IMG/VR virus record: IMGVR_UViG_3300047472_000046
Coordinates: 1 to 31,971 of that record
DNA from: a virus
Reading direction: 5' to 3' (one strand)
DNA: 31,971 bases
The translations under genes and the position numbers were made by a program. Within the stretch, counting starts at the first letter, position 1; the number at the start of each line of letters is the position of its first letter. The notes beneath the pieces are model-generated. The model made no database searches. It was not told the origin of the DNA and saw only the letters and a list, made by a program, of their open reading frames with translations. Below, piece by piece: positions 1,357-25,510 of the stretch.

Positions 1357-1374
1357 TAAGTCAGTATTGACTCT
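1357..1374 (-). promoter_or_regulatory. TAAGTCA inverted repeat, site 1 (putative operator/promoter)
   Basis: The plus strand reads TAAGTCA-GTAT-TGACTCT: one perfect arm and one diverged arm around a 4-base spacer. The near edge is 25 bases from the start codon at 1331. The arm nearest the promoter side is degenerate, and a -10-like GCTAGAGT overlaps it rather than sitting one base away as at sites 5-10. A rho-independent terminator lies immediately upstream, which supports this as the start of a new transcript. Confidence 0.65.
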
Positions 1375-1390
1375 AGCACAAGCCCAAAGA

Positions 1391-1428
1391 AATAAAAAGG
1401 GGCGGGCCATTAAGTGGCGACCCGCCCC
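1391..1428 (-). terminator. Rho-independent terminator after the ligase operon
   Basis: On the minus strand a perfect 8-bp stem, GGGGCGGG/CCCGCCCC (1428-1421 and 1406-1399), encloses a 14-base loop. It is followed directly by TTTTTATT (1398-1391). This is a canonical intrinsic terminator for leftward transcripts. It ends the replication/ligase transcription unit about 100 bases after the ligase stop and insulates the next promoter (site 1). Confidence 0.8.
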
Positions 1429-1481
1429 GAGCACAACAGAGGAGAAACACGACTTAACCCAGTCGCCGGGGTAATTTAGTT

Positions 1482-1519
1482 GCGCGAAATAGGTAAGTCA
1501 ATGCTTACTTATTGCGCGC
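1482..1519 (-). promoter_or_regulatory. Extended hairpin containing TAAGTCA inverted repeat, site 2
   Basis: Positions 1482-1497 and 1504-1519 form a 16-bp inverted repeat with two mismatches and a 6-base loop (TCAATG). Inside it lies a variant of the phage-wide repeat, TAAGTCA-ATGC-TTACTTA, at 1494-1511. It starts 8 bases after the ligase stop codon and, unlike the other nine copies, has no gene start just downstream and no -10-like sequence next to it. No T-run follows, so it is not a classical intrinsic terminator. It could be an orphan operator, an mRNA 3'-end stabiliser, or a roadblock site. Confidence 0.5.
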
Positions 1520-1526
1520 CCCTATT

Positions 1527-2639
1527 TTAATCCACCCTCCCCTCGGCCCCGTGGAAGTCGATCGCGACCGGGAAGCGGAGCGAGCCGTCGGGCGTGCGGC
1601 CGAAGTGCCGGATCGTCGCCAGCTTGTAGCGGTCGGCCTGGGCCAGGAGCTTCTTGGCGAAGTCCTGGGTGCCGCGCATGCCGGCGCCGACCTCGCCCTC
1701 GGGCGCTTCCGGAATGTCCAGGACGACGCGCTTGGCGTAGCCGGCCCAGTTACCGTTGCCCTCCTCGATCCGCTTGATCGGGAATTCCTCGGTGATGAAC
1801 TCCTTGCGCTTGAGCAGGCTCTTGGAGCGGGCGTCGAAGTCGTAGGGCGCGTCCAGGCGCACCATCTGGCCTTCGTAACCCTGCTGCGTGTATTCGCCGT
1901 TCAGATGATCAAGCAGCGCCTGAGTGCCGATGTGAGACGTCGTCACCGGCACCAGAGGCTCACAGAGCTCGAACTCCGAAAAGACCTTCATCAAGTCTGC
2001 GTTGCGCTCCTTGAATGGCTTCTCGCTCGGCAGATCGTAGACGTGATACTGGATCAGCTTTGCGGCCTCGGCCTTCTGGGCGTCGGTCGGCTTCTGCTTG
2101 CGGACCACCGAGACGATCTTGTTGAAATCGTCCTTCAGGTCGTGGTTGTAGAACTCGCCGTCCAGGATCAGGTCCGGATACTTCGCGAACACCGGCGCCA
2201 GGGCCGCGAGGATGTGGTCGCAATTGTAGTGCGGCTGGAGCTCGCGCGAGAACGCGCCGTGCCGGGAGATCACGGCGCGGATGCCGTCGAGCTTCGGCTG
2301 CGAGAACACTGGGAAGGCAAGCGGCTTCTTGAGCTTGCCGTAGTCGTGGGCGAGCATCGGGCCAACACCGACACTGTCGAGCTCGGCGATCGTCATGCGG
2401 TATTCGCGCTTGAGCTTCTTGCCACGCTCGGCCTGCGCCTCAATGACCGCTTGGGAATCGCGCGAGGTTTCGTTGGCGCGGCCGACGTTCTTGGCCTCGC
2501 ATTTCGTCCAGCCGGTGGTGACGAGCGCCCCGCCCTGCACGCCGGCGATGGTGCGATAGCTGTCGCCCTGGACCTCGTATTGCCAGGTGCGGATCTTGCC
2601 GCTGGTGTCGCGCTTGTAGATCGGATCGGAAATGCTCAA
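1527..2639 (-). CDS. ATP-dependent DNA ligase (370 aa)
   Basis: Seals nicks in DNA through an enzyme-adenylate intermediate. Motif I, K-L-D-G-I-R, places the AMP-accepting lysine at residue 116. D-G-E-F-Y fits motif III, Y-E-G-Q-M-V-R motif IV and L-L-K-R-K-E-F motif V. Residues 1-85 are an N-terminal extension (W-Q-Y-E-V, G-W-T, K-N-V-G-R-A-N-E-T) that I take as a phage-ligase DNA-binding or WGR-like region. The start is probably TTG 2639: it overlaps the upstream TGA and has GGAGG seven bases before it. The frame stays open further upstream but then overlaps a well-supported gene. It is the last gene of the replication operon. Phage ligases commonly join lagging-strand fragments. Confidence 0.88.
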   Translation of the reverse strand: MSISDPIYKRDTSGKIRTWQYEVQGDSYRTIAGVQGGALVTTGWTKCEAKNVGRANETSRDSQAVIEAQAERGKKLKREYRMTIAELDSVGVGPMLAHDYGKLKKPLAFPVFSQPKLDGIRAVISRHGAFSRELQPHYNCDHILAALAPVFAKYPDLILDGEFYNHDLKDDFNKIVSVVRKQKPTDAQKAEAAKLIQYHVYDLPSEKPFKERNADLMKVFSEFELCEPLVPVTTSHIGTQALLDHLNGEYTQQGYEGQMVRLDAPYDFDARSKSLLKRKEFITEEFPIKRIEEGNGNWAGYAKRVVLDIPEAPEGEVGAGMRGTQDFAKKLLAQADRYKLATIRHFGRTPDGSLRFPVAIDFHGAEGRVD

Positions 2640-3184
2640 GACTGGTCCTCCATTGCTGCGTTGACTGCTGCGCTCATATCGCCCGACTGGGCGGCCTTCA
2701 TGAGTTCGGATGCGTCGGTCGACGCCGGCGCGGCCGCGGGCTTCTCGACGTTGTCGAGCTCCATCGCGCGCGCCTTGACGATGCGCGGTTGCTTGCTGGC
2801 CTTGCCGACGTAGTTTCTGGCGTTCTCGTTGTGCTCGACCAGGTATTTCTGCTCGGCTGCCGAGAGCGCGAAGCTGTTCAGCATCTTGTCGGTGATGAGA
2901 ATCTTGCCGGTCGCGTCCAGGAGATCCGCATCGAAGCTGCGCTCCTTCGGCTCGGCCGAGTGATATTCGTCGCTGCCATCGCGAACCATGCGCTTGACCA
3001 GACGGTCGATCGGGCACTTACCGCAGTGCATCGCAGCCTGACACCCGATGCGCTTGTCGGTCGGGCCATCGCCGCGCCAGACCAGGTCGCGGAGAATGAA
3101 GCAGGCGGCGATCCGGCTCTTGGTCGGAAACACCGGACAGTTGATGACGAGCTGGTTGTCGTGCTGTAGCGTCTTGTTGATCAT
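2636..3184 (-). CDS. Cys-rich protein of unknown function (182 aa)
   Basis: ATG 3184 (MINKTLQHDN) overlaps the upstream stop (ATGA) and has GGGGGA before it; an in-frame TTG at 3190 is less likely. The N-terminal third has five cysteines at about residues 16, 28, 48, 54 and 57, the last three as C-x5-C-x2-C, which suggests a zinc-binding or structural metal site. The middle is charged, and residues 130-182 are Ala/Ser/Pro-rich and likely flexible. It lies between a WGR-like protein and DNA ligase, with a 4-base overlap onto the ligase start, so a DNA-metabolism role is plausible by context only. I do not recognise a family. Confidence 0.6.
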   Translation of the reverse strand: MINKTLQHDNQLVINCPVFPTKSRIAACFILRDLVWRGDGPTDKRIGCQAAMHCGKCPIDRLVKRMVRDGSDEYHSAEPKERSFDADLLDATGKILITDKMLNSFALSAAEQKYLVEHNENARNYVGKASKQPRIVKARAMELDNVEKPAAAPASTDASELMKAAQSGDMSAAVNAAMEDQS

Positions 3185-3684
3185 CCCCAAATCCCCCAGT
3201 TTGAATTTTCAGCGACACGGTCTTCGATCGGCTCCGGCGGTTCGGGCACCTCGGCGACGAGTTTGCGCGCGCGCTCCGAATAGCGACCCGCCCCCTCATC
3301 CCATTGAGCCTCGTGCTGCCCGTCCTTCATGCCGCTCGTATCGACACCAGGCAGGAGCTCGGCCCATTTCGGGCCTCCGATCGCGTTGATGAGCTGGGGA
3401 CCGAGCGCCTTGCGAAGCTGAGCCTCGTCGAAGACGTCCTTGGTGCTGTCGATAAAGTGGGTGCTGTATTCACCCTGGAGCTTTTCGCGATGTTTCTTGT
3501 TGTAGGCGGTGCGAGCCTCTTCGGCGTCGGCATAGTGCTCGCAGAACCAGCCGTTGCCCCACTGGGACTTCTTGGCCCAACGGTTGATGTAAAGCGCGCG
3601 GCCATCGGCAGTCGTGATCAGGATCAGATGGTAATCCTTCGTGACCGCGCGACCCGACTGTTTGACGATCGTCATGGGGAACAT
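3181..3684 (-). CDS. WGR-like domain protein (167 aa)
   Basis: ATG 3684 (MFPMTIVKQS) follows an AGAGAGAG Shine-Dalgarno about 8 bases upstream. A GTG at 3735 in the same frame lacks one, and ATG 3675 is an alternative. Residues about 15-75 resemble a WGR fold: a beta-rich Y-H-L-I-L-I segment, then R-W-A-K-K-S-Q-W-G in place of the usual R-W-G-R-x-G, then E-E-A-R-T-A-Y-N-K-K-x-R-E-K. WGR domains bind DNA ends and nicks in PARPs and related proteins. The C-terminal half is polar and ends in an acidic, proline-rich tail. It is the first gene behind inverted repeat site 3 and is coupled to the Cys-rich gene and ligase. The assignment is by motif reading only. Confidence 0.6.
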   Translation of the reverse strand: MFPMTIVKQSGRAVTKDYHLILITTADGRALYINRWAKKSQWGNGWFCEHYADAEEARTAYNKKHREKLQGEYSTHFIDSTKDVFDEAQLRKALGPQLINAIGGPKWAELLPGVDTSGMKDGQHEAQWDEGAGRYSERARKLVAEVPEPPEPIEDRVAENSNWGIWG

Positions 3685-3759
3685 GACCGAAACTCTCTCT
3701 GTGCTGTTGTGCGCTTTCGCGCTGCTCTTGATCACATATAGCGTTTTAGTTCAGGATTG

Positions 3760-3777
3760 TAAGTCAAAACTGACTGG
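3760..3777 (-). promoter_or_regulatory. TAAGTCA inverted repeat, site 3
   Basis: The plus strand reads TAAGTCA-AAAC-TGACTGG. The left arm is perfect and the right arm matches in five of seven positions. It occupies the 98-base gap between the primase stop (3783) and the WGR-like gene start (3684), 75 bases from that start, the longest distance of the set. There is no good -10 hexamer one base upstream. A TACAAT sequence lies at the downstream edge of the repeat in the transcription direction and could serve instead. Confidence 0.6.
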
Positions 3778-3782
3778 AACGA

Positions 3783-4895
3783 TCAGGCAGCTTTGAACGG
3801 GTTTTGCAGCATCCATTTGATGTGCTGGGTCTGGCTATAGGGAACCCGCTCCCAGAACGCACGCCGGACGACGTCTCCCGTGACCTCGTTCGGGTCGCGA
3901 TCGGCCGGCAACAGGGCGATGTAGGCCTTGAGCCCGATCCGGATCAGCAGCTTCGCCGCCTCGCAGGCCGCGAGCAGCGCCTTGTGCTCACCGTCCCACA
4001 TGATCGTCACCTCCTCGAGCCCTTGGCTCTTGAGGGTTCGGAAGCGGGAGAGCTGGTCGTTGCCGTCGGTATGACCGAAGGATAGGTGCTTGCCGAACGA
4101 GCCGACGGGCACCACGTCGCGCAAGGCGACTTCCTCGTCGAAGGCCTTCTTCATGGCGAAGACGTCGAAGCCGCCCTCGCCCATGGCCACGCGCCTGGCC
4201 CGCTGCACCGATTGCCCGTTCAGGAGATATCGACCCGTTCCTGGCAGACCTTTCGGGAAAAGGTATTTGCGACCACCGTCCTCGCCGGTGATGTCGCGAC
4301 CCTGGAAGGTGACGAACTCGCCGTCGAGATCGTAGACCGGGATGATGACGCGGCCGTCGAACTTCTGGTAGCCAGGCGTGCCGTCTTCCTTGGTGTAATT
4401 CCACCAGCCCTTCTCACAGAAGCGCAGATGGAAGAACTTGGCGAACTCGCCGCCGATGCCGCGGTCCTCGAGGTATTGCAGATTGCAGCCCTCGGGGGTC
4501 GGCAGTTCGAATGAATTGGGGAACTTGGCCGTTTCATAGGCGACGGCGACCTGGACGGTCTGCTTCGGGCGCCAGCCCTGCTCCTTGATGCAGTCCGTGG
4601 CGTGCTCGAAGGTCGCGCGCCAGGACTTGCGATCGTCCGGATCGTTGCCGAGGTAAAGGTGCATGAACTTGAGCTTGTTGAAGCCCGCGTTGCACACGAA
4701 GCAGTTGCCGATGCCGCTCTCGGCATTTAGATAGACGCGCCAGCGCGAATCGCCGCACGCCGGGCAATCCTTGACGTTGAGCTGCATGCCGCTCGAGCCG
4801 CGACCCAGCTTGTGGGCGATGCTCTCGCGATCCATCCAGTATTCCAGGTCGAGAGTCTCGACCAGCTCGTCCTTGTCAACGCGAGCGTGCATCAT
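3783..4895 (-). CDS. DnaG/T7-type DNA primase with zinc finger and Toprim domain (370 aa)
   Basis: Makes RNA primers for phage DNA replication. A zinc-finger pattern C-x2-C-x17-C-x2-C (Cys 44, 47, 65, 68) is followed by a core with G-R-V-I-I-P-V-Y-D and T-F-Q-G-R-D-I-T-G, typical of phage primases. A Toprim domain then gives G-E-G-G-F-D (Glu240, Asp244) and M-W-D-G-E (Asp301). The C terminus carries no helicase domain; the helicase is the separate gene just upstream, with a 4-base overlap. ATG 4895 overlaps the helicase stop, and the next codon is also ATG, so the start could be one residue later. An open frame to 5000 would overlap the helicase further and is rejected. Confidence 0.88.
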   Translation of the reverse strand: MMHARVDKDELVETLDLEYWMDRESIAHKLGRGSSGMQLNVKDCPACGDSRWRVYLNAESGIGNCFVCNAGFNKLKFMHLYLGNDPDDRKSWRATFEHATDCIKEQGWRPKQTVQVAVAYETAKFPNSFELPTPEGCNLQYLEDRGIGGEFAKFFHLRFCEKGWWNYTKEDGTPGYQKFDGRVIIPVYDLDGEFVTFQGRDITGEDGGRKYLFPKGLPGTGRYLLNGQSVQRARRVAMGEGGFDVFAMKKAFDEEVALRDVVPVGSFGKHLSFGHTDGNDQLSRFRTLKSQGLEEVTIMWDGEHKALLAACEAAKLLIRIGLKAYIALLPADRDPNEVTGDVVRRAFWERVPYSQTQHIKWMLQNPFKAA

Positions 4896-6247
4896 AGAAT
4901 GCCCAGCACCTTGGTTGCGAATTTCATCTGCTCGCGCTTCTGCTGAAGGCGCAGAGTGACTTCCTTCTGGTTGCGGCTGGCCGCGAAGTGCAGCCGGCAC
5001 TCGCCGGCCGAGATTTCGGGGTCTGTCGCATTGCCCGACAACAGGAGATCGGCGATGCGGGTCTTGTTGTAGTCCTCGGCGACGTCAGTGCCCTTGGCCA
5101 CGGTGGCCTTGGCGCCCTCGCGGTTGGTCTGTGTGGCCGTCAGAACGGCTGCATTCTGCTCGAAGGCAACGTCGCGCAGGTCGATCCAGATCGACCGGCT
5201 ATCCTCACGGATCTCGCCAGTCAGCCGTTCCGGACACATGATGTCGGCATAGTCGACGATGATCAGGTCGAAGATGATGCCCTGGTCGCGATACCACTCC
5301 AGGCGCCGGCGGAGCTGGCTCGGCTTGAGCCGGCCGGAGGAATATTCTTCCATCTTGATGACGCCGCCGGCCGCCTTCGCGCGCGCCTCGGCCGCCTTGA
5401 TCTTGGCCTCGACAGCGAACGCCGAGCCGGTCAGCGCGTTCATCGCGGTGTCGGCGAAGTTGGCGTCCATACGGTCGGCGTAGATGCGGCAGGAGACTTC
5501 GCAGGTCGCGATGAAGACCTTGTAGCCGGCCATCGCGGCGCCCTTGCCGAAGTCGCCCAGCGCCATCGACTTGCCGAACTTCGCGCGACCCATGATCGCG
5601 GAGAGCTCCTTGCGACCCCATCCGCCGTGGTAGAGGTGCTTGTCGATCTCGGGCAGGCCCGTGGTGATGCCGTCGGGCTTGATCAGGCCGGTGGCCAGGG
5701 CGTTGCGGTGCTTGGTGCGGGCCTCGATCTCGGTGAAGTAGTCGTATTCGCCGCTACCCGTGACGGCGCCGACGTTCACGGCTGCCTTGATCAGTTGCTC
5801 GATCTTGGAATAGTCGCCCTTGGCCAGCAGCCCGACCGAGGACATGATCGCGCCCTCCATCGCCTTGTGCTTGGCGAAGTCGGCGACCTGGTCGATCGCA
5901 TAGTCGCGGTTGGACAGCGACGTGCCCAGCAGTGCCCCGAGGCGCGGCTTGATGTCCGGCCACATATCCTTGGGGATCTTCTTGTCGTCCTTGGCCTGCT
6001 TGATCACCCGCACCAGAGTTGCGGGATCCGGTGCCTGCTTATAGGTCCGGAAGTGGTCCTGGGTGATTTTGACGAGGACCGCGTCGATCTCGTTCTCGAA
6101 ATAGGTGGGCTCGATCAGGCCCTCGGTGCGCTGCACGAAGACGGGATCGCGGAGCGCGAGCGCCGCAATCTTCGTCTGAAACTTCTCGTCGAACTCGAAG
6201 GTCGCCTCCTCGGCGGCCTCCGGCTCTTTTTCGGCAACGTCCGACAT
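4892..6247 (-). CDS. DnaB-type replicative helicase (451 aa)
   Basis: A RecA-fold hexameric helicase that would unwind the phage fork with the adjacent primase. Residues 20-160 look like an N-terminal DnaB-type domain. Walker A is G-R-A-K-F-G-K-S (Lys226), Walker B is L-I-I-V-D-Y-A-D (Asp332), and T-A-T-Q-T-N-R-E-G near residue 370 is the sensor motif H4. The start is ATG 6247 with GGGTGG upstream, overlapping the Hfq-like gene stop (TGATG); an overlapping TTG at 6250 is possible. Inverted repeat site 4 lies 36 bases upstream, inside the end of the previous gene, so the helicase and primase may have their own promoter. Length is normal for phage DnaB-like helicases. Confidence 0.88.
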   Translation of the reverse strand: MSDVAEKEPEAAEEATFEFDEKFQTKIAALALRDPVFVQRTEGLIEPTYFENEIDAVLVKITQDHFRTYKQAPDPATLVRVIKQAKDDKKIPKDMWPDIKPRLGALLGTSLSNRDYAIDQVADFAKHKAMEGAIMSSVGLLAKGDYSKIEQLIKAAVNVGAVTGSGEYDYFTEIEARTKHRNALATGLIKPDGITTGLPEIDKHLYHGGWGRKELSAIMGRAKFGKSMALGDFGKGAAMAGYKVFIATCEVSCRIYADRMDANFADTAMNALTGSAFAVEAKIKAAEARAKAAGGVIKMEEYSSGRLKPSQLRRRLEWYRDQGIIFDLIIVDYADIMCPERLTGEIREDSRSIWIDLRDVAFEQNAAVLTATQTNREGAKATVAKGTDVAEDYNKTRIADLLLSGNATDPEISAGECRLHFAASRNQKEVTLRLQQKREQMKFATKVLGIL

Positions 6248-6558
6248 CAAACCACCCGGTAATGACGAATGCTGTGCTTAAATACAGTCAGAACTGACTT
6301 ATATGTTCCGTCAGGATTAGACACTTCGACCTTGAGCGAGAATTGATCCGCTTCGAGAAGAACGCCGGTGAAGCCGACGGTCTCGGCAAAGTCGATCTCC
6401 ACCCGCTTGCCCTTGGCCGCGGTTAGATCCTGCTGGTGGCTCCACGGCTTCGGCCTGAAGGGCTTGCGATCGCGGCTGTTCTCACGCTGGAAGTCGCCCG
6501 TGGGCTTGCGGAACTGTGCGCTGTTGCGCGGCGGCAGACGGGTGGTCTCGGAGGGCAT
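6247..6558 (-). CDS. Hfq/Sm-like RNA-binding protein (103 aa)
   Basis: The C-terminal 60 residues read like Hfq. Q-Q-D-L at 42-45 matches the conserved Hfq N-terminal Q-D-L. G-K-R-V-E-I-D-F then F-T-G-V-L-L-E-A-D-Q-F-S-L (residues 50-75) matches Sm1, including the D-x-F of the Hfq proximal face. V-F-K-H-S-I (92-97) matches the diagnostic Sm2 motif Y-K-H-A-I, keeping Lys and His. Residues 1-40 are a basic, probably disordered tail not found in typical Hfq. The start is ATG 6558 with GAGAGA upstream. Hfq forms hexameric rings that pair small RNAs with mRNAs; this protein may form its own ring or modify host Hfq. Its last codons contain inverted repeat site 4. Confidence 0.72.
   Translation of the reverse strand: MPSETTRLPPRNSAQFRKPTGDFQRENSRDRKPFRPKPWSHQQDLTAAKGKRVEIDFAETVGFTGVLLEADQFSLKVEVSNPDGTYKSVLTVFKHSIRHYRVV
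6284..6301 (-). promoter_or_regulatory. TAAGTCA inverted repeat, site 4 (intragenic, before helicase)
   Basis: The plus strand reads ACAGTCA-GAAC-TGACTTA: one perfect arm and one matching in five of seven positions, with the same 4-base spacer as elsewhere. It lies inside the last codons of the Hfq-like gene (residues about 86-92, Y-K-S-V-L-T-V) and 36 bases before the helicase start at 6247. A weak TATAAG-like -10 overlaps the upstream arm. It is the only copy embedded fully in coding sequence, so part of the match may reflect codon constraint. Confidence 0.55.
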
Positions 6559-8224: not shown

Positions 8225-8728
8225 TCACTTTGGTCTTGGGGGCTTTGGCTTGGTGGTCTTCGGGGTGAACGACATCGAGTTCACCGGAAGCTTGGAGTTG
8301 TTGTCGATCTTGCAGGCGATGGAGACCGCCTCGCGCGCGCTTTTACCAGCCAGCATGGCACCGAGCGCCAGATGCGAGCCGGAGCCGATCGCGGCCGCGC
8401 CGAGATTGCAGACATTGACGTAGCCATGATACCGGCCGCTATCGTCCTCGTCGCAGCCGACGATGTAGAGGGAGTTGGGGCCGAATGCGATCAGCACCTG
8501 GCAGTCGGTCAGGCACGCCGCAATCTCCTGCTTGGTGGGGAGCTGCGCGGGCTTTTTGACCTTGTCGATCAGCGTCAGGACTGCGCGATTATCGGCCTCG
8601 CCGCACCAGCCGATCAGGGCGCCGGCCGAGGTGCGCTGCACCTTGTTCACGGAGGCGCCGTAATAGCCCCCGCCCGAGATGCAGGAATCGGAGGCCATGA
8701 TGCCGTCCTTGAACGCGATGGTCGTCAT
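8225..8728 (-). CDS. HslV/proteasome beta-like Ntn-hydrolase (167 aa)
   Basis: The N terminus M-T-T-I-A-F-K-D-G-I-M-A-S-D-S matches the HslV/proteasome pattern, in which Met is removed to expose a catalytic threonine. Downstream, N-K-V-Q-R supplies the lysine, and G-S-G-S-H-L-A-L-G-A-M-L-A-G-K-S-A-R-E-A-V fits the conserved G-S-G and A-x-x-A-V helix. The last 20 residues are a Lys/Pro-rich tail. The start is ATG 8728, preceded by AGGAGG; an upstream GTG at 8752 in frame is unlikely. It is the first gene behind inverted repeat site 5. No HslU ATPase is visible, so it may act alone or with a host unfoldase. Whether it processes virion proteins or others is unknown. Confidence 0.82.
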   Translation of the reverse strand: MTTIAFKDGIMASDSCISGGGYYGASVNKVQRTSAGALIGWCGEADNRAVLTLIDKVKKPAQLPTKQEIAACLTDCQVLIAFGPNSLYIVGCDEDDSGRYHGYVNVCNLGAAAIGSGSHLALGAMLAGKSAREAVSIACKIDNNSKLPVNSMSFTPKTTKPKPPRPK

Positions 8729-8755: not shown

Positions 8756-8780
8756 TAAGTCAGTGATGACTGACAGTATA
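8756..8780 (-). promoter_or_regulatory. TAAGTCA inverted repeat, site 5, with -10-like TATACT
   Basis: The repeat at 8756-8773 reads TAAGTCA-GTGA-TGACTGA on the plus strand. One base beyond it, at 8775-8780, the minus strand reads TATACT within GCTATACT, a good -10. The start of the HslV-like gene is 27 bases downstream. Upstream of the -10 is AAGTTCCCGC, shared exactly with site 6, and I see no -35 hexamer. A perfect hairpin (8795-8825) lies just upstream. Confidence 0.72.
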
Positions 8781-11023: not shown

Positions 11024-12427
11024 TTAGCTGTAGCGACGCTTGCCGGCCGCCCGACGAATGCGAGCGGTCACGGTGCCGGCCTTCGACGCGCGGAATTCGA
11101 AGTGCTGGGTGACCCACGTCTTCGTGGTGTAGGCGGGAACCACGAGCTTCTCGGTCAGGAGCGAGATCTTGAGCGCGCCGGTCGTAGCCTGCGAGCTGTC
11201 GATCGGGCTCAGATCCATCGTGGTTCGGGCTCCGAGGCCATTGCCCGAGCCGTTGGCCTGGAGATAGAGCTGCGCGCCGGCGAGGCCCGTGGCGTCGTCG
11301 ATCGCGATCTCACCGCTCGCCTGGATGATGTCGCCGGGGCCCCACGCCGCGATCGGCCAGTCCTGGACGAGAGCGAAGGTGTCGCCGGCTGCCGCGAAGG
11401 TCATAGCCAGAATAACTTCCGAGCCGGGGGACCCGTCAGCGGGCGTGCCCTGGGACACGGCGCAGGTCTGGGTGCCGCCGCCGTTGCCGAGCGAGCTCAC
11501 GCGCGTCACCGTCCAGCCCAGCGGAACCGAGCCCGTAACGCCGCCGCCAGCGACGCCGCCCGTAGCCGTCGTGAACATCGGGTTGGTCAGCACCTGAATG
11601 TTGCCGTTGGCCGCGACCTCGAACACGTTGCGCAGCTCGCGGGGCATCACGGGGTAGAGCTGGGTGATGAGCGCAGCCAGGCCGACGCCGGCCGCATAAG
11701 CGCCCGCGGCAGCTTCATGGGTGGTGTCGCGCATGTAGCCCGTCTTGAAGACGATGGTCGAGGCGGTCGAAGCGCTGGCGTTCCAGAGGTAGGACGGCAG
11801 ATCGAACAGGACCTGGTTCGGCGCAGTCTCAGACCAGTTGCGCAGGCGCTCGTTGTATTCCAGCATTGCGCTGATCTGCGCAGCCGAGAAGTTAGATGCG
11901 CCGGCCTCGAGGCAGACGATGACGCGGCTGTAGCCGACAGCGAGCGCGCTCGCATGGGCAAGCTTCACGTTCTCGAGGACGTGGCGTGCCACGTTCGACA
12001 GATTGATCGTCGTTCCGATCATGGTGCCGGCGGTCGAGACGAAGCCGGCCGGGGCCTGGGCGAAATCGTTGGCGCCGATCAGGATGTAGAGGGTGCCGGC
12101 CTTGACCGCCAAGCAATTGCCGAGACGGGCCAGCATCTGGTCCGAGCGATCGCCGGAATTGCCCTGGTTGGTGGCCAGCGTGATACGGTGACCACTGAGC
12201 GAGTTGGCCCAGCCGAGATGATTGGCGTTCGAGATGTTCAGGAAGTTGCCGTGATCCAGATGCACCTGGTCCACCCGGCTGTCACCGAGGATGGCCCAGA
12301 GCGACGGATGACGATCGGTCTTGACCACGAGTTTCGACGGGTAGTCGGCGACAACGCGGTTCGGGGTCATGTCCCGACCAACAGAGGTGCCGGGCGGGCT
12401 GGAAATTCCGTCGTCGACGAAGGGCAT
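11024..12427 (-). CDS. Fibre-like protein with GDSL/SGNH esterase domain (467 aa)
   Basis: A predicted virion-associated deacetylase acting on host surface glycans. Block I is W-A-I-L-G-D-S-R (Ser50). Block II is covered by the N-x-G-N-S-G-D-R-S region, block III is I-L-I-G-A-N-D (Asn120), and block V is R-D-T-T-H (Asp234, His237). All four SGNH blocks are therefore present within residues 45-240. Residues 265-467 form a beta-rich domain with G-W-T-V-T-R and W-V-T-Q-H-F-E-F-R-A, resembling a carbohydrate-binding sandwich. The start is ATG 12427 with CAGGAG seven bases upstream, 26 bases from inverted repeat site 6. It is co-transcribed with the second esterase gene. Confidence 0.78.
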   Translation of the reverse strand: MPFVDDGISSPPGTSVGRDMTPNRVVADYPSKLVVKTDRHPSLWAILGDSRVDQVHLDHGNFLNISNANHLGWANSLSGHRITLATNQGNSGDRSDQMLARLGNCLAVKAGTLYILIGANDFAQAPAGFVSTAGTMIGTTINLSNVARHVLENVKLAHASALAVGYSRVIVCLEAGASNFSAAQISAMLEYNERLRNWSETAPNQVLFDLPSYLWNASASTASTIVFKTGYMRDTTHEAAAGAYAAGVGLAALITQLYPVMPRELRNVFEVAANGNIQVLTNPMFTTATGGVAGGGVTGSVPLGWTVTRVSSLGNGGGTQTCAVSQGTPADGSPGSEVILAMTFAAAGDTFALVQDWPIAAWGPGDIIQASGEIAIDDATGLAGAQLYLQANGSGNGLGARTTMDLSPIDSSQATTGALKISLLTEKLVVPAYTTKTWVTQHFEFRASKAGTVTARIRRAAGKRRYS

Positions 12428-12453: not shown

Positions 12454-12478
12454 TAAGTCAGGACTGACTGGTAATAAA
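12454..12478 (-). promoter_or_regulatory. TAAGTCA inverted repeat, site 6, with -10-like TTTATT
   Basis: The repeat at 12454-12471 reads TAAGTCA-GGAC-TGACTGG. The minus strand reads TTTATT at 12478-12473, one base from the repeat, preceded by the same AAGTTCCCGCT found at site 5. The esterase gene at 12427 starts 26 bases downstream. It fills almost all of the 60-base gap after the gene ending at 12488. Confidence 0.7.
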
Positions 12479-16469: not shown

Positions 16470-16673
16470 TTACGCATTATAGTCGGGCAGAGGCTCGTCC
16501 GTCTGCTCGAGGAAAATCTCGTCGAAGTCAGCGCCGGGACGCTCTTGATCGTCGTAACCCGGCAGCGCTACGCCGTAGCTGCCGCCGTCGTTGATCCGAA
16601 TGACCTCGTAGACTTCCGGGAAGAAGCGCTGGAACGGAGGCTTGATCCGCACATGGTCTCCGACCGCAAACAT
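16470..16673 (-). CDS. Small SH3/KOW-like protein (67 aa)
   Basis: ATG 16673 overlaps the upstream stop (TGATG). The first half, F-A-V-G-D-H-V-R-I then Y-E-V-I-R-I-N-D-G-G-S-Y-G-V, reads like a compact five-strand SH3 or KOW-type barrel. The C-terminal 25 residues are acidic and proline-containing. Small barrels of this kind occur in phage structural operons and in nucleic-acid-binding proteins. I cannot name the family. It lies between a conserved small structural protein and the paralogue triplet, in the same transcription unit behind site 7. Confidence 0.5.
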   Translation of the reverse strand: MFAVGDHVRIKPPFQRFFPEVYEVIRINDGGSYGVALPGYDDQERPGADFDEIFLEQTDEPLPDYNA

Positions 16674-17071
16674 CAGGCGTTGCCATCCGTCATGGTGAAG
16701 CCGGTGATGTTGATCGGCTGGCTGACGGCGATCGAGGTGTTGTCGACCTGGAGATCGCCCGTGCCGACGCCGACGGTGCCCTGCATGCCGCAGGTAGCGC
16801 CGGTGCTGTCCACGATGCGGAAGTAACCCGCAGTGCCGCCGGCGATGCCGTTGGTCGAGGGCGTGCCGATGAAGGCCTTGGAGCCGGATGCAGCAGCCGC
16901 AGCCCAGTCAGCGGCAAGCGTGAACTCTGCGAGCTTGGTGCCGGACGACGCGGTCGCAGCAGAGGCCGGCATCGAGCCCGACCAGATCTGAAGCTTGGCA
17001 GCGGTGCCGATGATGGTCTCGATTGCGTCGAGCCGCGCGTTGCGCACAGCCACAGAAAGCTGAATAGCCAT
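16673..17071 (-). CDS. Conserved small phage structural protein (132 aa)
   Basis: ATG 17071 has GGAGGG close upstream and lies 29 bases from inverted repeat site 7. The layout matches a protein type I know from many tailed phages and prophages of Proteobacteria: M-A-I-Q-L-S-V-A-V-R-N-A-R-L-D-A-I-E-T at the start, then L-Q-I-W-S-G, A-E-F-T-L-A-A-D-W, G-T-A-G-Y-F-R-I-V-D-S, C-G-M-Q-G-T-V and D-N-T-S-I-A-V. It is usually annotated as hypothetical or as a structural protein next to tail genes. The protein is beta-rich, without signal peptide or catalytic motif. It is the first gene of the operon that continues through the paralogue triplet to the gene ending at 12488. Confidence 0.68.
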   Translation of the reverse strand: MAIQLSVAVRNARLDAIETIIGTAAKLQIWSGSMPASAATASSGTKLAEFTLAADWAAAAASGSKAFIGTPSTNGIAGGTAGYFRIVDSTGATCGMQGTVGVGTGDLQVDNTSIAVSQPINITGFTMTDGNA

Positions 17072-17100: not shown

Positions 17101-17125
17101 TAAGTCAGGAATGACTTACAATCTA
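17101..17125 (-). promoter_or_regulatory. TAAGTCA inverted repeat, site 7, with -10-like TAGATT
   Basis: The repeat at 17101-17118 is perfect: TAAGTCA-GGAA-TGACTTA. The minus strand reads TAGATT at 17125-17120, one base from the repeat, within GCTAGATTG. The TAG of this hexamer is also the stop codon (17125-17123) of the gene upstream. The structural gene at 17071 starts 29 bases downstream. Confidence 0.75.
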
Positions 17126-19009
17126 GCCCCTGAATTTACCGTTCTGGAGCGTGATGATTGCGCGCTTGCCGTCCGGGTATTGAACGACGCAGGCCACAGC
17201 CCAGGAGCTTGGCCCCTTGTTGTAGCCATGGTTGAGCTCGAGGGCGCCGGCGACATAGACGCCGTCCTCGATCGCCGGCGAATGCTTGTCGCCGATCGTC
17301 ATCTTGACGCCCATACGGGCAAAGCCCGCGACCGTGCCCTTGGCGCCGTTCGGGCCCCGGAAACCATGATGCCCGTGCTCGATGCCGTCGATCTTGTAGG
17401 ACTTGCCGTCGTAGGCCCAGAACACGCCATCCAGCGCCCCGCCCTTCATCCGGCGCCCGAGGGTCTCGAGCAGGCTCCAGTTCGGGGTCTTGGTGAAGGT
17501 GCCGCGGCAGCGCGCGATGACCTCGTGCCGGTCGAGCAGATCGCTCTCGAGCTGGTTGCCCAGGCGCGCGTTGATGCCGTCCATCCGGAAGCGGCCCTCG
17601 ACGACGTAGCGGTTCAGCGCGATATCGTGGTTGGCCTCGATCACGACCGACTTGGTGCCCGGCCGCTTGGTCTGGATCAGGAAGTCGAAGGCCTCGCCGG
17701 CCTCATTGACGACGACGCCCTTGCCCCGGAACGCCTGCTCGTAATCGTGCATCGGGTCTTTGGCGTGGTGGTGATTGCGATCCTCGTTGTCGAAGAAGTC
17801 GTGATAGGTCATCTCCTCGGGATCGAGGACGTCGACCAGACTCTTGCGCTTCTTCCATTCCGGTAGGATTTGCCGGCACGGCTTGCCGGTGAGCGGGTCC
17901 CAGCCCCAGATCGCGCGGGCGTTGGTCGGGCCCATCTTGGCGCGGTGACTGTCAGGCGTCGTCAGCGCGCGGGCGCGGTGCTTTCCGACGATCACCTTGC
18001 CGTCCGCAACATAGCTGTCGAGGTCATAGAAGGCGCCGGTCTTCTTGTCGGCCGAGATGTGCCGGCAGAACACGTCGCCGTCCTGGTCGAATTCGACGAT
18101 CACGGCGCCGAGCACCTGATGGAACAGGGCCTTCATGCCGGCCTTGCGGGGAATGACCTTGGGCTTCGTGACCAGGCCGGTCGACATCACCTGCACGGCC
18201 TGCATGTCGGGGTCTGTCGATGGGACTGACCGAAGTTGGCGCTTGGCGGCGGGAAAGACGGCCCATTTGCCGCGCGAATTGGCGATCAGGTCGTCGATAG
18301 GCTTGGAGGCAGTCGGGATGATGTTCATCTGACCGCAGAACATGAAGTTGTCGCCGATCTCGAGCTGCCCGAAGCAGAGGTGATCCTTCAGGACCGGATC
18401 GTAGGCGCGTGCGGTGGGGTTGTTCTCGCTCCACCACTGGGTCTCGTAGGTGCCAGGGCCGATCGCGATCCTGGCGCCGATCTTCTTAGCGTAGGCCTTG
18501 AGGTTGTCCCAGAAGGGCTTGTGAACCTCGGTGTCGTTCTGAGCGCCGCCGACGATGAACTTCATGCCGCGGGGGTTGGTGATCGGGGCGGCCAGCGGGG
18601 TCGAATTGAGCCAGGTCCGCGGCGTGCTCTCGCGCATGACATGGTGGCCCATGTGGCGATCGTAGCGCCGGACCATGAAGCTCTCGACCTGGATGCACTC
18701 CGGATTGATCAGGGGCCAGTTCGAGCCGGTAGTGAGCACCTGAATCTGCTGGGCGAGATCCAGGGCGCGGGCGTGAGCGTGCTGCTCGGGGGTCTTCTCG
18801 TCGCCCTTCTCCACCACCTTGACCTGGTGACGGTCGATCAGCTTGGGCAGCTTGTCGTCGAGACGGGTTCGGGCGCGGTAGACGGAGCTCTTGTTCCGGA
18901 CGGTCTGATGTGAAAGCTGAAGGCCGGCAGCGAGATCAGCGAGCGTCGGGAACTTCTTCGTGTCGTTGTAGGCTTTGACGAAACGCTTGAGCTCGGCCGG
19001 AAGGGTCAC
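17123..19009 (-). CDS. Large phage protein with N-terminal HTH and metallophosphoesterase-like motifs (628 aa)
   Basis: Residues 21-50 (T-L-A-D-L-A-A-G-L-Q-L-S-H-Q-T-V-R-N-K) form a clear helix-turn-helix, so DNA binding is likely. Further on, V-V-I-E-A-N-H-D (456-462) resembles the G-N-H-D/E block of calcineurin-like phosphoesterases. E-H-G-H-H-G-F (544-550) and G-D-K-H-S-P (573-578) could complete a metal site, and H-D-F-F-D-N-E-D-R-N-H-H-H at 403-415 is strongly metal-ligand-like. A nuclease or phosphatase role follows from family knowledge but is not proven. The start is probably GTG 19009, seven bases after AGAGG; an in-frame TTG at 19015 sits too close to it. It is a single-gene unit between sites 8 and 7. 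Confidence 0.62.
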   Translation of the reverse strand: MTLPAELKRFVKAYNDTKKFPTLADLAAGLQLSHQTVRNKSSVYRARTRLDDKLPKLIDRHQVKVVEKGDEKTPEQHAHARALDLAQQIQVLTTGSNWPLINPECIQVESFMVRRYDRHMGHHVMRESTPRTWLNSTPLAAPITNPRGMKFIVGGAQNDTEVHKPFWDNLKAYAKKIGARIAIGPGTYETQWWSENNPTARAYDPVLKDHLCFGQLEIGDNFMFCGQMNIIPTASKPIDDLIANSRGKWAVFPAAKRQLRSVPSTDPDMQAVQVMSTGLVTKPKVIPRKAGMKALFHQVLGAVIVEFDQDGDVFCRHISADKKTGAFYDLDSYVADGKVIVGKHRARALTTPDSHRAKMGPTNARAIWGWDPLTGKPCRQILPEWKKRKSLVDVLDPEEMTYHDFFDNEDRNHHHAKDPMHDYEQAFRGKGVVVNEAGEAFDFLIQTKRPGTKSVVIEANHDIALNRYVVEGRFRMDGINARLGNQLESDLLDRHEVIARCRGTFTKTPNWSLLETLGRRMKGGALDGVFWAYDGKSYKIDGIEHGHHGFRGPNGAKGTVAGFARMGVKMTIGDKHSPAIEDGVYVAGALELNHGYNKGPSSWAVACVVQYPDGKRAIITLQNGKFRG

Positions 19010-19026: not shown

Positions 19027-19051
19027 TAAGTCAGTAGTGACTTACATAATA
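19027..19051 (-). promoter_or_regulatory. TAAGTCA inverted repeat, site 8, with -10-like TATTAT
   Basis: The repeat at 19027-19044 is perfect: TAAGTCA-GTAG-TGACTTA. The minus strand reads TATTAT at 19051-19046, one base from the repeat. A transcript starting about seven bases past the hexamer would begin inside the repeat. The near edge is only 17 bases from the preferred GTG start at 19009 (11 from the alternative TTG at 19015). Confidence 0.75.
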
Positions 19052-20167: not shown

Positions 20168-20170
20168 GGG

Positions 20171-20662
20171 TTACTTTCGGTCCAAAGGGTGGAGCTGGCC
20201 TTCCAGATAGGCCTGCTTCTTGCCGGTCTCGACTTCGACCTCCCAGAGCCGGCGAACACGATCGTCCAATCGCCGGCCATCTTCGGCCGCTTCGCGCCAG
20301 TAGCGCTCATGCTCGACACGGGGCACCATGACGGACTGCATCTGGTCGATCTTGGTTTCGTGCTTGGTGAGAATGGCGGACAGGCCGGTGTAACCCCAGC
20401 CGCCGAGCGTCAGCAGAGCGCCGATGACGATCGAGATGGGCGTCCACACGCTGGCTGACCGGCTGGCATTGGACGAATTGACGGCGTCGAACTTGCTGTC
20501 GATGCGACCCAGCACCTTGTCGAAACCCATCTGGGTCTTCTGGTCGAGGCTCGCAACTTCACCACGCACGGAGCCGATCTCCTGGCGAAGCTGATCGTGC
20601 CCCGTCTGGAGATTGGTCACCTGGGCTCGGATCTCGCCGAAGTCGGTCATATCGTCCTGCAT
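20171..20662 (-). CDS. Coiled-coil membrane protein in lysis cluster (163 aa)
   Basis: Residues about 8-62 are predicted coiled coil (I-R-A-Q-V-T-N-L-Q-T, L-R-Q-E-I-G-S-V). One transmembrane helix follows at 73-93 (V-W-T-P-I-S-I-V-I-G-A-L-L-T-L), then a second charged helical region with many Arg and Glu. It is the first gene behind inverted repeat site 9 and is followed after three bases by the holin candidate. It could be an antiholin, a second holin or a lysis-membrane scaffold. ATG 20662 is used here; ATG 20650 is an alternative with AGGA just upstream of it. Confidence 0.6.
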   Translation of the reverse strand: MQDDMTDFGEIRAQVTNLQTGHDQLRQEIGSVRGEVASLDQKTQMGFDKVLGRIDSKFDAVNSSNASRSASVWTPISIVIGALLTLGGWGYTGLSAILTKHETKIDQMQSVMVPRVEHERYWREAAEDGRRLDDRVRRLWEVEVETGKKQAYLEGQLHPLDRK

Positions 20663-20680: not shown

Positions 20681-20705
20681 TAAGTCAATGATGACTTATA
20701 TTATA
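20681..20705 (-). promoter_or_regulatory. TAAGTCA inverted repeat, site 9, with consensus -10 TATAAT
   Basis: The repeat at 20681-20698 is perfect: TAAGTCA-ATGA-TGACTTA. The minus strand reads TATAAT at 20705-20700, an exact -10 consensus, one base from the repeat and inside GCTATAATA. No -35-like hexamer lies 16-18 bases further upstream. The lysis-cluster gene at 20662 starts 18 bases downstream. Confidence 0.78.
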
Positions 20706-20758
20706 GCCGGATGGTTGACCCAGATGGAAGAAGGAACTCTTCCTGTAATGTGATTGGT

Positions 20759-21805: not shown

Positions 21806-21814
21806 TTCAGTTCC

Positions 21815-22198
21815 TTAGACGAGCGCGGTGGCGCGGATCAGGAGATTGTCTACTTGGGCTTCGGTCAGGCCCAGCGCTGCGATCACGCCCTGGACCAGCG
21901 GATCGACACGCTTGATCTCGGTGGCGAGATCCCACTCCTCCTGGGCATTCGCGTTCGAGGCAATTGCCGCCTTGACGTTGGCCCATTGACCAAGCTCGTC
22001 GAAGGCGCGCTTGAGCCCGAGCTTGGTGCAGGAGGTCGGCACCGGAGCAGGCATCTCGACCCAAGCATCGGGAATACCGCCCGCCGCAAGCCAAGCCTCG
22101 TAGACCTGGCGATCGACATTCGCTGTATCATTGGGAATGCACGCGCTGTCTGCCATGCGAACGACGACATCGCTACCAGTGAGTTGATATTCGGGCAT
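21815..22198 (-). CDS. Small tail-fibre-associated protein (127 aa)
   Basis: The first part has the pattern of small phage fibre-linked proteins: [14 protein letters not shown] then [15 protein letters not shown]. The helical second half reads [25 protein letters not shown] and [21 protein letters not shown]. Such proteins commonly follow fibre genes and may help assembly or cap the fibre. ATG 22198 starts three bases after the fibre stop with GAGG nine bases upstream. It lies between the full fibre and the free-standing duplicate of its tip. Confidence 0.65.
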
Positions 22199-22201
22199 TC
22201 G

Positions 22202-25200
22202 TTACATCCTCGCGTTAAGTGAAAGATCATCCATAAAAACCCCGTTCCCAGTCGCATTTGCAGCCTTATAGAAAAAGGCGGAAGTGTCAGTTGCGCTGAG
22301 GATGCTGGGTATGGTGGTTGGAAAGCTCACAGCAAAAATATTAGAGATTTGCGCGATGGTTGGAACTGCCCTTGTGGCGACAGAAAACATCACTGGCCCC
22401 GGGCCATAGGAACTACCATTTGTAACCGTGCCGCTCTGGTAACCAACCCTGAGTTTCTGCCAATATCTTTTGCAGGCAAGCAACTCACTCGGATAATCCG
22501 GCAACTGGAATGCTGGCGCAACTACCCCCTCATATAGGCCCACATCAAACAACTCGAACACGTTGCCGTTGGTGCCAAAGAGATTGAACTGATTGGCGCT
22601 GCCGAGAGCGAAGGCACTCTGCCAGGAGCCTGGAGATCCTTGCCAAGCCGATCCCGCTCCAAGACACCAATAAACGACCAGTCCGATGCCGTTGTCGGAT
22701 AACCAAGTGCCGGTTTGATCGAGCGAGACAGTCACCGATTTCACAACGTCGGTGTTAGCCTCGCCGGCCGAGATCGTATATTCGGCCACATAGCTGCGAC
22801 CCCCACTGGCGTTGCCGAGGGAGATGCAATAGGTGCCGGCGGGTGCCTTCACGCCAAACTGAAGCGTGACGGTCTTCGCCACTGAAGTGCCCAGCCTGAG
22901 ATCTGCAACGCGAAGCCCCTCCAGCGGCGTGACGACACGAATGCGATCCTGCGCATCCATCGTTGCGTCCGCAGTTGTCACCGTGACGCGCAGACGATTG
23001 GGGGATCCGCCAGGGGTCGGCGACGCGACCTGCGCGACTGAGGCGACGCCGGCCGTATTGACCTTGTAAAAATAGAATTGGTCGACCGGATAGAAGGTCG
23101 ACTGATCAGCAGGCGAAGCGGCGGTCGATCCGTTTTCCTGACTGACCTGCATGCCGCCGTTGATGATGTAGTTCCGCTGCATCACGCCGATATTGGCGCG
23201 AAACTTAGCTTTGTCAGCGATGTCGGCGCCGTTCTGCGAGATCGAGAGCGCATTAGCCGGGGTATAGGCAAGCGAGCAGTCGATATAGACCACGTCGGAG
23301 GCGTTGACGCCTAACGCCAGAGTGACGCTGGTGCCATTGGTCGCCGTGAAGTCGTTCGGCGTCAGGGTCGAGCCGTTAAGCACAACGGTGATGAAGCCCG
23401 GCGTGTAAGCAAGCGTGCGCGAGAACACATCCAGACCCGAGAACGTGGTCTGACCAGCACTCGCGTTGTAGAGAAATTTGCGGACGGTGACGAAGTCAGC
23501 CGTGCCCGGATCACCGGCAAGGTTGATATTCCAGCTCGCAAGCGTGCCGCTGCCAACAGCTTTGTCGACCACGAACGATAAGACACCCGTCGAGGAGTTA
23601 TAGGCCGATGCGATGCCTTCAATGTAGGTGGAAGGCGTTGCCGTCGAGCTCGCGCGCACGCGAGTGCCTGGCAAATACGACAGGTTCGCCTGCGTCGTCA
23701 GGGTCACGGAGCCAGTAGCAACAGGGACCGAGGTGGTGGAAGTGCCTTTGTAGCTGACGCTGGTGCCGTTGGTGCCGGGCGTTCCAGGATCGCCCTTATC
23801 ACCCTTCACGCCCTGCACGCCCTGAAGGCCCTGCGGAATGCCGAAGTTGAAGACGGCATCGTTCGCGGTGCCAGCGTTGACGACGGTTGCGCTGGCGCCC
23901 GCCGCGAGCGTGGACACAGTTCCGGGGGCAACAGTCGCCGTTAGGCCCTTGTCACCCGCGCGCGTGAATAGGACCGAGAGCAGCCGTGCGTCGGTAAAGA
24001 TACCGCCCGCAATCGGCGTCACCGCGAGCTTGCGATATCCCGTGGTGGCGGCGATGCCGGTGACGTTGAAGACTGCGACCTGGGGCTGCGACGGGTCGAT
24101 CAGCGTCAACGTGCCCTTGATAGCGTTGCTTGAGTCGTCCCAAGTGTCGAGGTAGGTCGTCACGTCGACGCCAAACCGCTCGGTGATGTCGATGAAGATC
24201 TGAGTTACGCTGCCGAAAGTTGCACTGTTGAAGCGCAGTTTGCCGGCGCCGGGATCTGCGTCGGTAATGGTGGACGAAAAGGTCCATTGCAGAGCGCTGC
24301 CTGGACCCTGGATCAGGGAGATCGTGTAGAGATCCTGCCAGTTAACGACAGAGACATAGCTCCATTGCAGGATCGCTCCGTTCATTCGGAACTGGACTTT
24401 GTCGCCCTGCGGACCGTTCACATTGACGGCGTCAGTGATAAGCGACACCTGCCCCGTAGCGCCGATATAGGCGCCGGTGGCAGGTTTGGTGCCGTCGCCA
24501 CCTGTCCAGTCAACGATCTTGGCGACCTGCCCGCCGGAGCCGTTGGAGACATAGGCCAGGATCGGTGACCAGCCCTTGAGGCCCGTGCTGCCGCCAGAGC
24601 CTGCGCCGCCGAGCGCGCGCCAGCGCGAGGCCGTGCCGTCATAAACCAGCAACACCGAGCCGCCGGCCGGAATTGCCAGGTCACTCGACAGAGCAAATCG
24701 GTTGGCAGCGGCCGAGAGACCGCTTTCCTTTGAGAGGTCGAGCTCATTGCTGCCGACATTCATCAGTGCCAGCACGCGCCCCGGAGCGCCACCAGTGATG
24801 CCGGTCAGAGCGCGAGCGTTGTCAGTCGTCAGCCGCAGAATGTTGGCCTGCGCCAGGTTTGCCGGCGCATAGTCGTTCGTGGTGGCGGTGATCTGCGTCG
24901 GTGACACAACGTTGCCGAGCAGAAGCTGCGAGTAGATCGAAGTCGCACCGGTCGTCGGGTTGATGCCGAGCGCTTTGGTCCAGGTCGAGGCCAGCAGGTA
25001 GCGAACCGAGAAGTCATCATCCTGGAAAGTGCCGACCTGGAACATATCGACCAGGGCCTTCTGGAGAACCAGCCCTGCCCGGTCGGTCGTCAGCGTCTTG
25101 GAGGTCTTTACGAGCTGATCCGACTGGGTCAGGCTCATCAATTGCCGCCAGAGCGAGCTGATATCCGTGAGCTGCTTGGTCGCCGTGCGAACGGAGTCAC

Positions 25201-25456
25201 GGGAGACGCTGGCGCGGAAGATCACCCAGCCCGAGCCGCCCGCCGAGTTCGTCGCAGTGGCGCCGGCATAGTTGCGGTCGAGCGAAGCTGCCAGATTGTC
25301 GCTGGGAGCCGTGGCGAGCTCATACCATTTGCCGTCCGGAGCCAGGACCGTGTCGCCCTGCTGGAGCCCGATGAAGCTCGTTCCCACGCCAACCAGGTTC
25401 ACAGAACCGTTGGTGAAGGTGATCGTGCCGGTGGTGTAGAGCGTGAGCTGGGACAT
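22202..25456 (-). CDS. Large tail fibre protein with collagen-like segment (1084 aa)
   Basis: The N-terminal ~80 residues (G-T-V-T-F-x-N-G-S-style, G-V-G-T-S-F) resemble phage fibre attachment domains. A long Thr/Ser/Ala-rich beta region follows. Residues about 540-565 contain Gly-x-y triplets (G-L-Q-G-V-Q-G-V-K-G-D-K-G-D-P), a collagen-like trimerisation segment common in fibres. The region A-D-K-A-K-F-R-A-N-I-G-V-M-Q-R-N-Y near 755 is a typical joint before the C-terminal receptor domain. That domain is duplicated in the gene at 20759-21805. ATG 25456 has AGGA upstream and lies 29 bases from inverted repeat site 10. It is expected to be a trimeric receptor-binding fibre. Confidence 0.85.
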   Translation of the reverse strand: MSQLTLYTTGTITFTNGSVNLVGVGTSFIGLQQGDTVLAPDGKWYELATAPSDNLAASLDRNYAGATATNSAGGSGWVIFRASVSRDSVRTATKQLTDISSLWRQLMSLTQSDQLVKTSKTLTTDRAGLVLQKALVDMFQVGTFQDDDFSVRYLLASTWTKALGINPTTGATSIYSQLLLGNVVSPTQITATTNDYAPANLAQANILRLTTDNARALTGITGGAPGRVLALMNVGSNELDLSKESGLSAAANRFALSSDLAIPAGGSVLLVYDGTASRWRALGGAGSGGSTGLKGWSPILAYVSNGSGGQVAKIVDWTGGDGTKPATGAYIGATGQVSLITDAVNVNGPQGDKVQFRMNGAILQWSYVSVVNWQDLYTISLIQGPGSALQWTFSSTITDADPGAGKLRFNSATFGSVTQIFIDITERFGVDVTTYLDTWDDSSNAIKGTLTLIDPSQPQVAVFNVTGIAATTGYRKLAVTPIAGGIFTDARLLSVLFTRAGDKGLTATVAPGTVSTLAAGASATVVNAGTANDAVFNFGIPQGLQGVQGVKGDKGDPGTPGTNGTSVSYKGTSTTSVPVATGSVTLTTQANLSYLPGTRVRASSTATPSTYIEGIASAYNSSTGVLSFVVDKAVGSGTLASWNINLAGDPGTADFVTVRKFLYNASAGQTTFSGLDVFSRTLAYTPGFITVVLNGSTLTPNDFTATNGTSVTLALGVNASDVVYIDCSLAYTPANALSISQNGADIADKAKFRANIGVMQRNYIINGGMQVSQENGSTAASPADQSTFYPVDQFYFYKVNTAGVASVAQVASPTPGGSPNRLRVTVTTADATMDAQDRIRVVTPLEGLRVADLRLGTSVAKTVTLQFGVKAPAGTYCISLGNASGGRSYVAEYTISAGEANTDVVKSVTVSLDQTGTWLSDNGIGLVVYWCLGAGSAWQGSPGSWQSAFALGSANQFNLFGTNGNVFELFDVGLYEGVVAPAFQLPDYPSELLACKRYWQKLRVGYQSGTVTNGSSYGPGPVMFSVATRAVPTIAQISNIFAVSFPTTIPSILSATDTSAFFYKAANATGNGVFMDDLSLNARM

Positions 25457-25485
25457 CGGGATCCTATTTGCCGAGGTTATCAGTA

Positions 25486-25510
25486 TAAGTCAATACTGAC
25501 TTATAATCTA
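25486..25510 (-). promoter_or_regulatory. TAAGTCA inverted repeat, site 10, with -10-like TAGATT
   Basis: The repeat at 25486-25503 is perfect: TAAGTCA-ATAC-TGACTTA. The dyad extends outward with TAT/ATA on both sides. The minus strand reads TAGATT at 25510-25505, one base from the repeat. Its TAG is the stop codon (25510-25508) of the gene upstream, as at site 7. The fibre gene starts 29 bases downstream. Confidence 0.78.

Follow-up and report, generated by a model that had tools for sequence, protein, structure and literature searches.

What is the role of an 18-letter inverted repeat, TAAGTCA-N4-TGACTTA (N4, any four bases), that occurs ten times in a fragment of viral DNA? The fragment (the window, G000) is the whole 31,971-bp stretch analyzed here, an IMG/VR record, and an earlier note on its sequence had offered three readings of the repeat: a repressor site, a site for a phage sigma factor or activator, or the hairpin promoter of a phage RNA polymerase. 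The co-occurrence of the dyads with a candidate repressor, the covariation of the two, and the overlap of the dyads with the -10/+1 region of predicted promoters favored the first reading, and the other two fit less well. We consider it very probable that the dyads are operators, dispersed over the genome, through which the lysogeny repressor of a phage-plasmid silences nearly all lytic units. Specifically, a Cro/CI-type helix-turn-helix (HTH) protein, encoded elsewhere in the genome beside a CobT-like gene, would bind each dyad, presumably in dimeric form, such that each subunit occupies one 7-bp half-site and the 4-bp center goes unread. In the plasmid state, the bound repressor would shut nearly every lytic transcription unit simultaneously. 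The distribution of the dyads, their overlap with promoters, their co-occurrence with the repressor gene, and the covariation between helix 3 and half-site were established computationally; we infer binding, dimerization, repression, superinfection immunity, and an inducing signal.

Dyad placement and promoter geometry

Our search of the window recovered the ten dyad variants at all of the positions listed earlier, and four were perfect copies, two had one mismatch, and four had two mismatches. Shuffled window sequence yielded a mean of 0.30 dyads and a maximum of 2. Nine of the ten dyads were located in gaps between genes despite a coding fraction of 95.9% (binomial p=3e-12), an enrichment that the earlier note had proposed as a check, and the tenth (6284) was inside the 3' end of an open reading frame (ORF; 6247-6558). 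Of the nine gaps of at least 30 bp, eight contained a dyad, and the ninth contained a tRNA-Met(cat) gene (564-640, minus strand). According to our own start codon calls, nine dyads were 18-41 nucleotides (nt) upstream of a start codon. The earlier note had given 11-75 bases for nine sites. Site 1494 had no neighbouring gene start and was located between the 3' end of the ligase gene and a terminator-like hairpin.

All of the long genes in the window were on the minus strand. On this strand, a -10-like hexamer, which had previously gone unnoticed, adjoined or overlapped 8 of the 10 dyads: the hexamer was one base upstream of six dyads, and two more dyads overlapped one. Among 437 sites in 22 genomes, 160 had a TATAAT-like hexamer (at least 5 of the 6 letters) starting no more than 9 nt outside the dyad edge versus 13-66 in control windows; in the window, the counts were 6 of 10 versus 0.3. 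At offsets -2 and +16, the signal was partly made of dyad letters. The higher control values came from windows within about 20-30 nt, and the highest were nearest the dyad; thus, promoters cluster in this region generally. A consensus -35 element at a fixed spacing upstream of the -10 gave no clear signal. The proposal that the dyads mark the starts of transcription units was in agreement with their position relative to genes and -10-like elements, as far as predicted starts are concerned. Because the dyads often abut or overlap -10-like hexamers, and hence the -10/+1 region of host-type promoters, a bound protein would block RNA polymerase, and this would be its natural mode of action.

The ten dyads are described here as read on the minus strand. 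The six with a hexamer one base upstream were located at 8756-8773, upstream of the HslV-like peptidase gene (8225-8728; TATACT at 8775-8780); 12454-12471, upstream of a lipase-like gene (11024-12427; TTTATT at 12473-12478); and, as perfect copies, 17101-17118, upstream of a virion structural gene (16673-17071; TAGATT at 17120-17125), 19027-19044, upstream of the T5-A1-like DNA transfer gene (17123-19009; TATTAT at 19046-19051), 20681-20698, upstream of an ORF (20171-20662; TATAAT at 20700-20705), and 25486-25503, upstream of the tail fibre gene (22202-25456; TAGATT at 25505-25510). The dyads overlapping a hexamer were AGAGTCA-ATAC-TGACTTA at 1357-1374 (TAGAGT at 1370-1375), upstream of an ORF starting at about 1316, and the dyad at 6284-6301 (TATAAG at 6298-6303), 37 nt upstream of the DnaB-like helicase gene (4892-6247). 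The dyad at 3760-3777 was upstream of an ORF (3181-3735).

In close relatives of the window, 13-14 of the 14 arm positions were identical where the flanks matched at 21-28 of 30. Specifically, 13/14 arm positions were kept at site 1357 in L008, G005, G003, and L006 (flanks 21-22/30), at 19027 in G003 and G005, and at 25486 in G003; 13-14/14 were kept at 3760 in five relatives; and 14/14 were kept at 6284 in five relatives and at 1494 in L008 and G005.

Site 1494 (TAAGTAA-GCAT-TGACTTA, 1494-1511) was overlapped by a promoter-like pair, TTGACT-N17-TAAATT (1501-1473). The earlier conclusion that the TTGACT within the dyad is unusable as a -35 element held in general, but perhaps not at this site. 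A terminator-like hairpin (1399-1428, minus strand), which was a consensus match only, was located between sites 1494 and 1357; as a class, such hairpins were not enriched over shuffles. The promoter-like pair and then the hairpin, with no gene between them (1511-1399, minus strand), might specify a repressor-controlled transcript of about 70 nt. A Rfam scan of the window identified tRNA only and gave no match for this putative transcript.

The dyad and its candidate repressor in related phage-plasmids

Judged from its genes, the window comes from a relative of SSU5/RHEph10-type phage-plasmids, probably a ~110-kb T5-A1/SSU5/RHEph10-related phage that can persist as a plasmid. It encodes a ligase, a primase, DnaB, PhoH, an HslV-like peptidase, a T5-A1-like DNA transfer protein, and tail proteins, with homologues of the replication and DNA transfer genes of SSU5/RHEph10-type phage-plasmids. 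Its DnaB was 51% identical to that of V1VFA-S and 38% identical to that of SSU5, and its T5-A1-like protein was 47% identical to that of RHph_N1_10 over the full length. The closest named relatives were the ~115-120 kb Rhizobium phages RHEph10, V1VFA-S, and RHph_N1_10, followed by Pseudomonas nickie and SSU5-group elements. The window itself is a 32-kb fragment, and a RepC match (191 bits) was found in its relative G003. V1VFA-S, which carries parA, parB, and repC, was termed phage-plasmid-like by its authors (PMC12509600). Another relative of RHEph10, pLM21S1, is a plasmid-like prophage.

The scan of relatives that had been suggested as a check, with up to two mismatches allowed, identified 10-44 dyads in nearly all of the scanned 80-119 kb related records. 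There were 40 in G006 (114 kb), 36 in G014, 26 in G015, and up to 44 elsewhere, and none in the relatives nickie, BUCTxx99, and BDU-MI-1. In V1VFA-S, a variant (TAAGTAA-N4-TTACTTA) was present in 42 copies, and the enrichment in gaps was again observed: 42 of 42 copies were between genes in a genome that is 90.3% coding, at a median of 31.5 nt upstream of a start codon. The gaps directly upstream of parA and repC had no dyad. Many copies of a single putative operator were found at predicted lytic promoters genome-wide, as in the case of P1 C1.

Two other arrangements were noted in these genomes. A second dispersed dyad, AAACAA-N1-TTGTTT, was present in SSU5 (L083-L088), W06, W18, W19, and W20 at 8-15 copies per 80-100 kb, and a start codon often followed after about 15-25 nt. 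A few dyads formed the loop region of a more extended stem (for example, CCGTCAGG...CCTGACGG), namely those at 22653 and 106767 in G015, 14974 in G028, and 36130 in G014; the idea that dyads are loops of larger hairpins, which arose by eye in G014 and G015, was rejected as a general one, as there were 0-2 such cases per genome.

To find a candidate binder, about 115 annotated V1VFA-S proteins were compared against the other genomes. The best candidate was a Cro/CI-type HTH protein of 130-150 amino acids. The V1VFA-S member, V1VFAS_105, is a 130-amino-acid HTH_3 protein (27.6 bits versus a curated cut-off of 23), and it had orthologues in G003, G005, G006, G014, G015, G016, and RHEph10, as well as in pLM21S1 and Cyrano. 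No orthologue was found in the dyad-free nickie, BUCTxx99, and BDU-MI-1 or in SSU5. A hidden Markov model of the candidate gave matches in 32 of the 42 records tested, and no dyad-rich record of at least 80 kb was among the negatives, which were nickie, BUCTxx99, BDU-MI-1, SSU5, two records whose dyads were at chance level, or fragments of no more than 47 kb. A tblastn search placed orthologues on 929 PLSDB plasmids; single-protein scans found just 1-2 loci. Pfam revealed no recognisable C-terminal cleavage domain in the candidate.

A small gene and a CobT-like gene or, in rhizobial members, repC lie next to the candidate gene in divergent orientation. Dyads were located upstream of the candidate gene itself in G003 and W01, which suggests autoregulation. 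In the AlphaFold2 model of the G003 protein, the mean predicted local distance difference test score was 74 (85-91 in the HTH region), and helix 3 began at residue 53, just after Lys51. Foldseek returned Cro/CI-fold matches that included the lambda repressor-operator complex, 434, and HigA (E about 0.006-0.02, none below 0.001), and a sequence search of the PDB returned the immunity repressor 8bny (E=6e-4). The orthologue in Cyrano of E. coli LF82, CYRAN_45, is annotated as a 'putative repressor' and was expressed 10-fold over the prophage background, and Cyrano is inducible by genotoxic stress (PMC9928086).

SSU5 (NC_018843.1) lacks CYRAN_44-46, and thus the repressor and its neighbour CYRAN_46, and also the integrase; the flanking CobT-like gene is kept, as is CYRAN_47 at 75% identity. 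SSU5 was isolated as a phage and seems to derive from a phage-plasmid that has become virulent. In G008 (IMGVR_UViG_3300046694_000296, 215,656 bp), the helicase and the repressor were each present twice, about 107 kb apart, which may reflect two related phages or a tandem or assembly duplication.

Half-site covariation and competing explanations

Plain palindrome counting missed hybrid sites, and sites were therefore scored against an N4 template of fixed spacing, with other spacings as controls. The template was AGTxA, with one mismatch tolerated elsewhere, and the base counted was that at position 6 of the half-site. In the 19 genomes with Lys or Arg at residue Z of the motif GYxZxN (Lys51 in G003), the fraction of C was 0.67-0.96, and AGTCA was the half-site in 19 of 19. 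In the 14 genomes with Asn at Z, the fraction of C was 0.07-0.78, and the half-site was mostly AGTAA. Z class and C fraction were associated (Mann-Whitney p=3.4e-6), and Z ranked first among 93 repressor columns (runner-up p=3.7e-4). Based on alignment by eye, we take Z to correspond to Gln28 of the 434 repressor, which is a base-contacting residue. A recognition-helix residue therefore covaried with the putative operator, with limited phylogenetic independence. Members with other helix-3 residues (G020, RHEph10, and W10) had other arms, AAATCA with Arg-Ala-Asn and ATCAAT/GTCAAT with Gln-Ser-Asn; G020 (Arg-Ala-Asn) read AATCA, and the further arm variant ATCAAT/GTCAAT was found in Gln-type RHEph10 and Pararhizobium.

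We give roughly even chances to a more specific proposal, in which a single residue where helix 3 begins defines the immunity groups of this phage-plasmid superfamily (Lys/Arg for AGTCA and Asn for AGTAA), and about 40 operators per genome were rewritten with the repressor several times via hybrid half-site intermediates (G027, G036, and G040).

Several observations weigh against a repressor-operator system. In a repressor tree built without the helix-3 columns, independent switches were few: at least five (about five) changes of Z and seven of the motif, with one supported independent pair. The Asn class was heterogeneous, as G027, G036, and G040 were mixed or C-leaning. V1VFA-S has 24 non-convergent gaps of at least 50 bp without a dyad, and dyads of this form are weak or missing in some enterobacterial members and in one member from Acinetobacter (W17). 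SSU5 retains weak dyads and has no detectable repressor orthologue, and the repressor gene was absent from the window, although it is present in relatives that are about 92% identical in the helicase. Finally, W21 (Asn) and W22 (Lys) were predicted beforehand to carry AGTAA and AGTCA dyads, respectively, and neither was present. These two alphaproteobacterial plasmids (L369-L373; 38-44 kb) carry a close repressor homologue without dyads, so the repressor gene alone is no predictor of dyads. They are unlike the ~110-kb phage-plasmids, and their annotated neighbouring genes include Cas3 and an aldo/keto reductase. It is possible, as speculation, that their homologue is a solitary immunity gene, a repressor protecting its plasmid.

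Among the alternatives, a promoter element for a phage-encoded sigma factor or activator fared best, and we still regard it as improbable. Such an element would directly precede transcription units, as the dyads do, and a sigma-70 region 2 protein of the V1VFAS_109 family occurs in many of the relatives; however, this protein was not detected in the dyad-bearing G015, G016, G028, and W16, a host-type -10 is already present at the dyad edge, and the half-site letters follow the Cro/CI-type protein. Moreover, activators normally bind upstream of the -35 element, not over -10/+1. It is very unlikely that the phage exploits the site of a host regulator. Although there is a precedent in alphaproteobacterial phages with scattered host CtrA sites (PMC9437464), the identical dyad occurs in Methylobacterium, Cupriavidus, and Acinetobacter elements, and, inside one host family, a change in the phage protein goes along with a change in the letter (TAAGTAA in V1VFA-S and pLM21S1).

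Two explanations in which the dyad folds are barely credible. The 7-bp perfect stem and 4-nt loop at four sites would suit the hairpin promoter of a single-subunit phage RNA polymerase, like the virion RNA polymerase of phage N4, but arm co-variation, another check suggested in the earlier note, was largely lacking: among 436 unique sites, 548 arm deviations were unpaired and 45 were compensated, with a mismatch limit that disfavours double changes. The hairpin reading is disfavoured because these arm changes are uncompensated; the PF00940 polymerase gave no match in 19 relatives, but neither did the controls, which makes this result weak. A 5' hairpin acting on mRNA stability or translation would agree with the median distance to start codons in V1VFA-S and with the overlap between the dyad and the predicted +1 region, but is opposed by the same uncompensated changes and by the association of the dyad letter with a DNA-binding-domain residue.

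Comparison with known systems

If the dyads are operators of the candidate repressor, knowing both would allow lysogeny, superinfection immunity, and compatibility of these elements to be predicted from sequence. Orthologues of the candidate are on about 929 sequenced plasmids, many of which are elements of ~105-120 kb from Klebsiella, E. coli, and Acinetobacter. The group would also amount to a natural experiment in regulator evolution, as any shift in specificity has to be matched at dozens of sites. Three of the four relatives without the repressor were dyad-free, a pattern that is directly testable on more genomes.

The window shares homologous DnaB, primase, PhoH, ligase, and T5-A1-like proteins with SSU5/RHEph10/pLM21S1-type phage-plasmids, and its group has an HTH gene orthologous to those of RHEph10, pLM21S1, and Cyrano. 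In the open-access papers searched, we found no description of the present system or of any operator system for SSU5/RHEph10/pLM21S1-type elements. The candidate belongs to the same HTH fold class as the lambdoid 434, P22, and lambda repressors. The 434 and P22 c2 operators are N4-centered dyads with an unread center, and the specificity residue is at the start of helix 3 (Gln28 in 434). Unlike the lambdoid systems, which have two clusters of three operators, this one has about 40 single dispersed sites, and its protein has no recognisable cleavage domain.

The stoperators of cluster A mycobacteriophages, which are bound by the immunity repressor, are also dispersed by the dozens, and their motif drifts with the repressor among related phages, but they are asymmetric 13-bp sites, oriented with transcription, that are mostly away from promoters and block elongation (PMC6550527). 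The dyads share the many dispersed sites and the motif drift alongside the repressor and differ in being symmetric and, in large share, adjacent to a -10, which sets them apart from stoperators. In P1, 22 operators of C1, which are asymmetric and 17 bp, are dispersed over the phage-plasmid genome and keep lytic genes off (PMC8546580). Here, too, a phage-plasmid has many scattered operators and, as we propose, one repressor, but the sites are symmetric dyads of 18 bp built around an N4 center, and the candidate protein is of the Cro/CI type. Thus, dispersed phage-plasmid operators were already known, and what differs here is a symmetric dyad that recurs across a wide set of phage-plasmids and would work in the manner of P1 C1.

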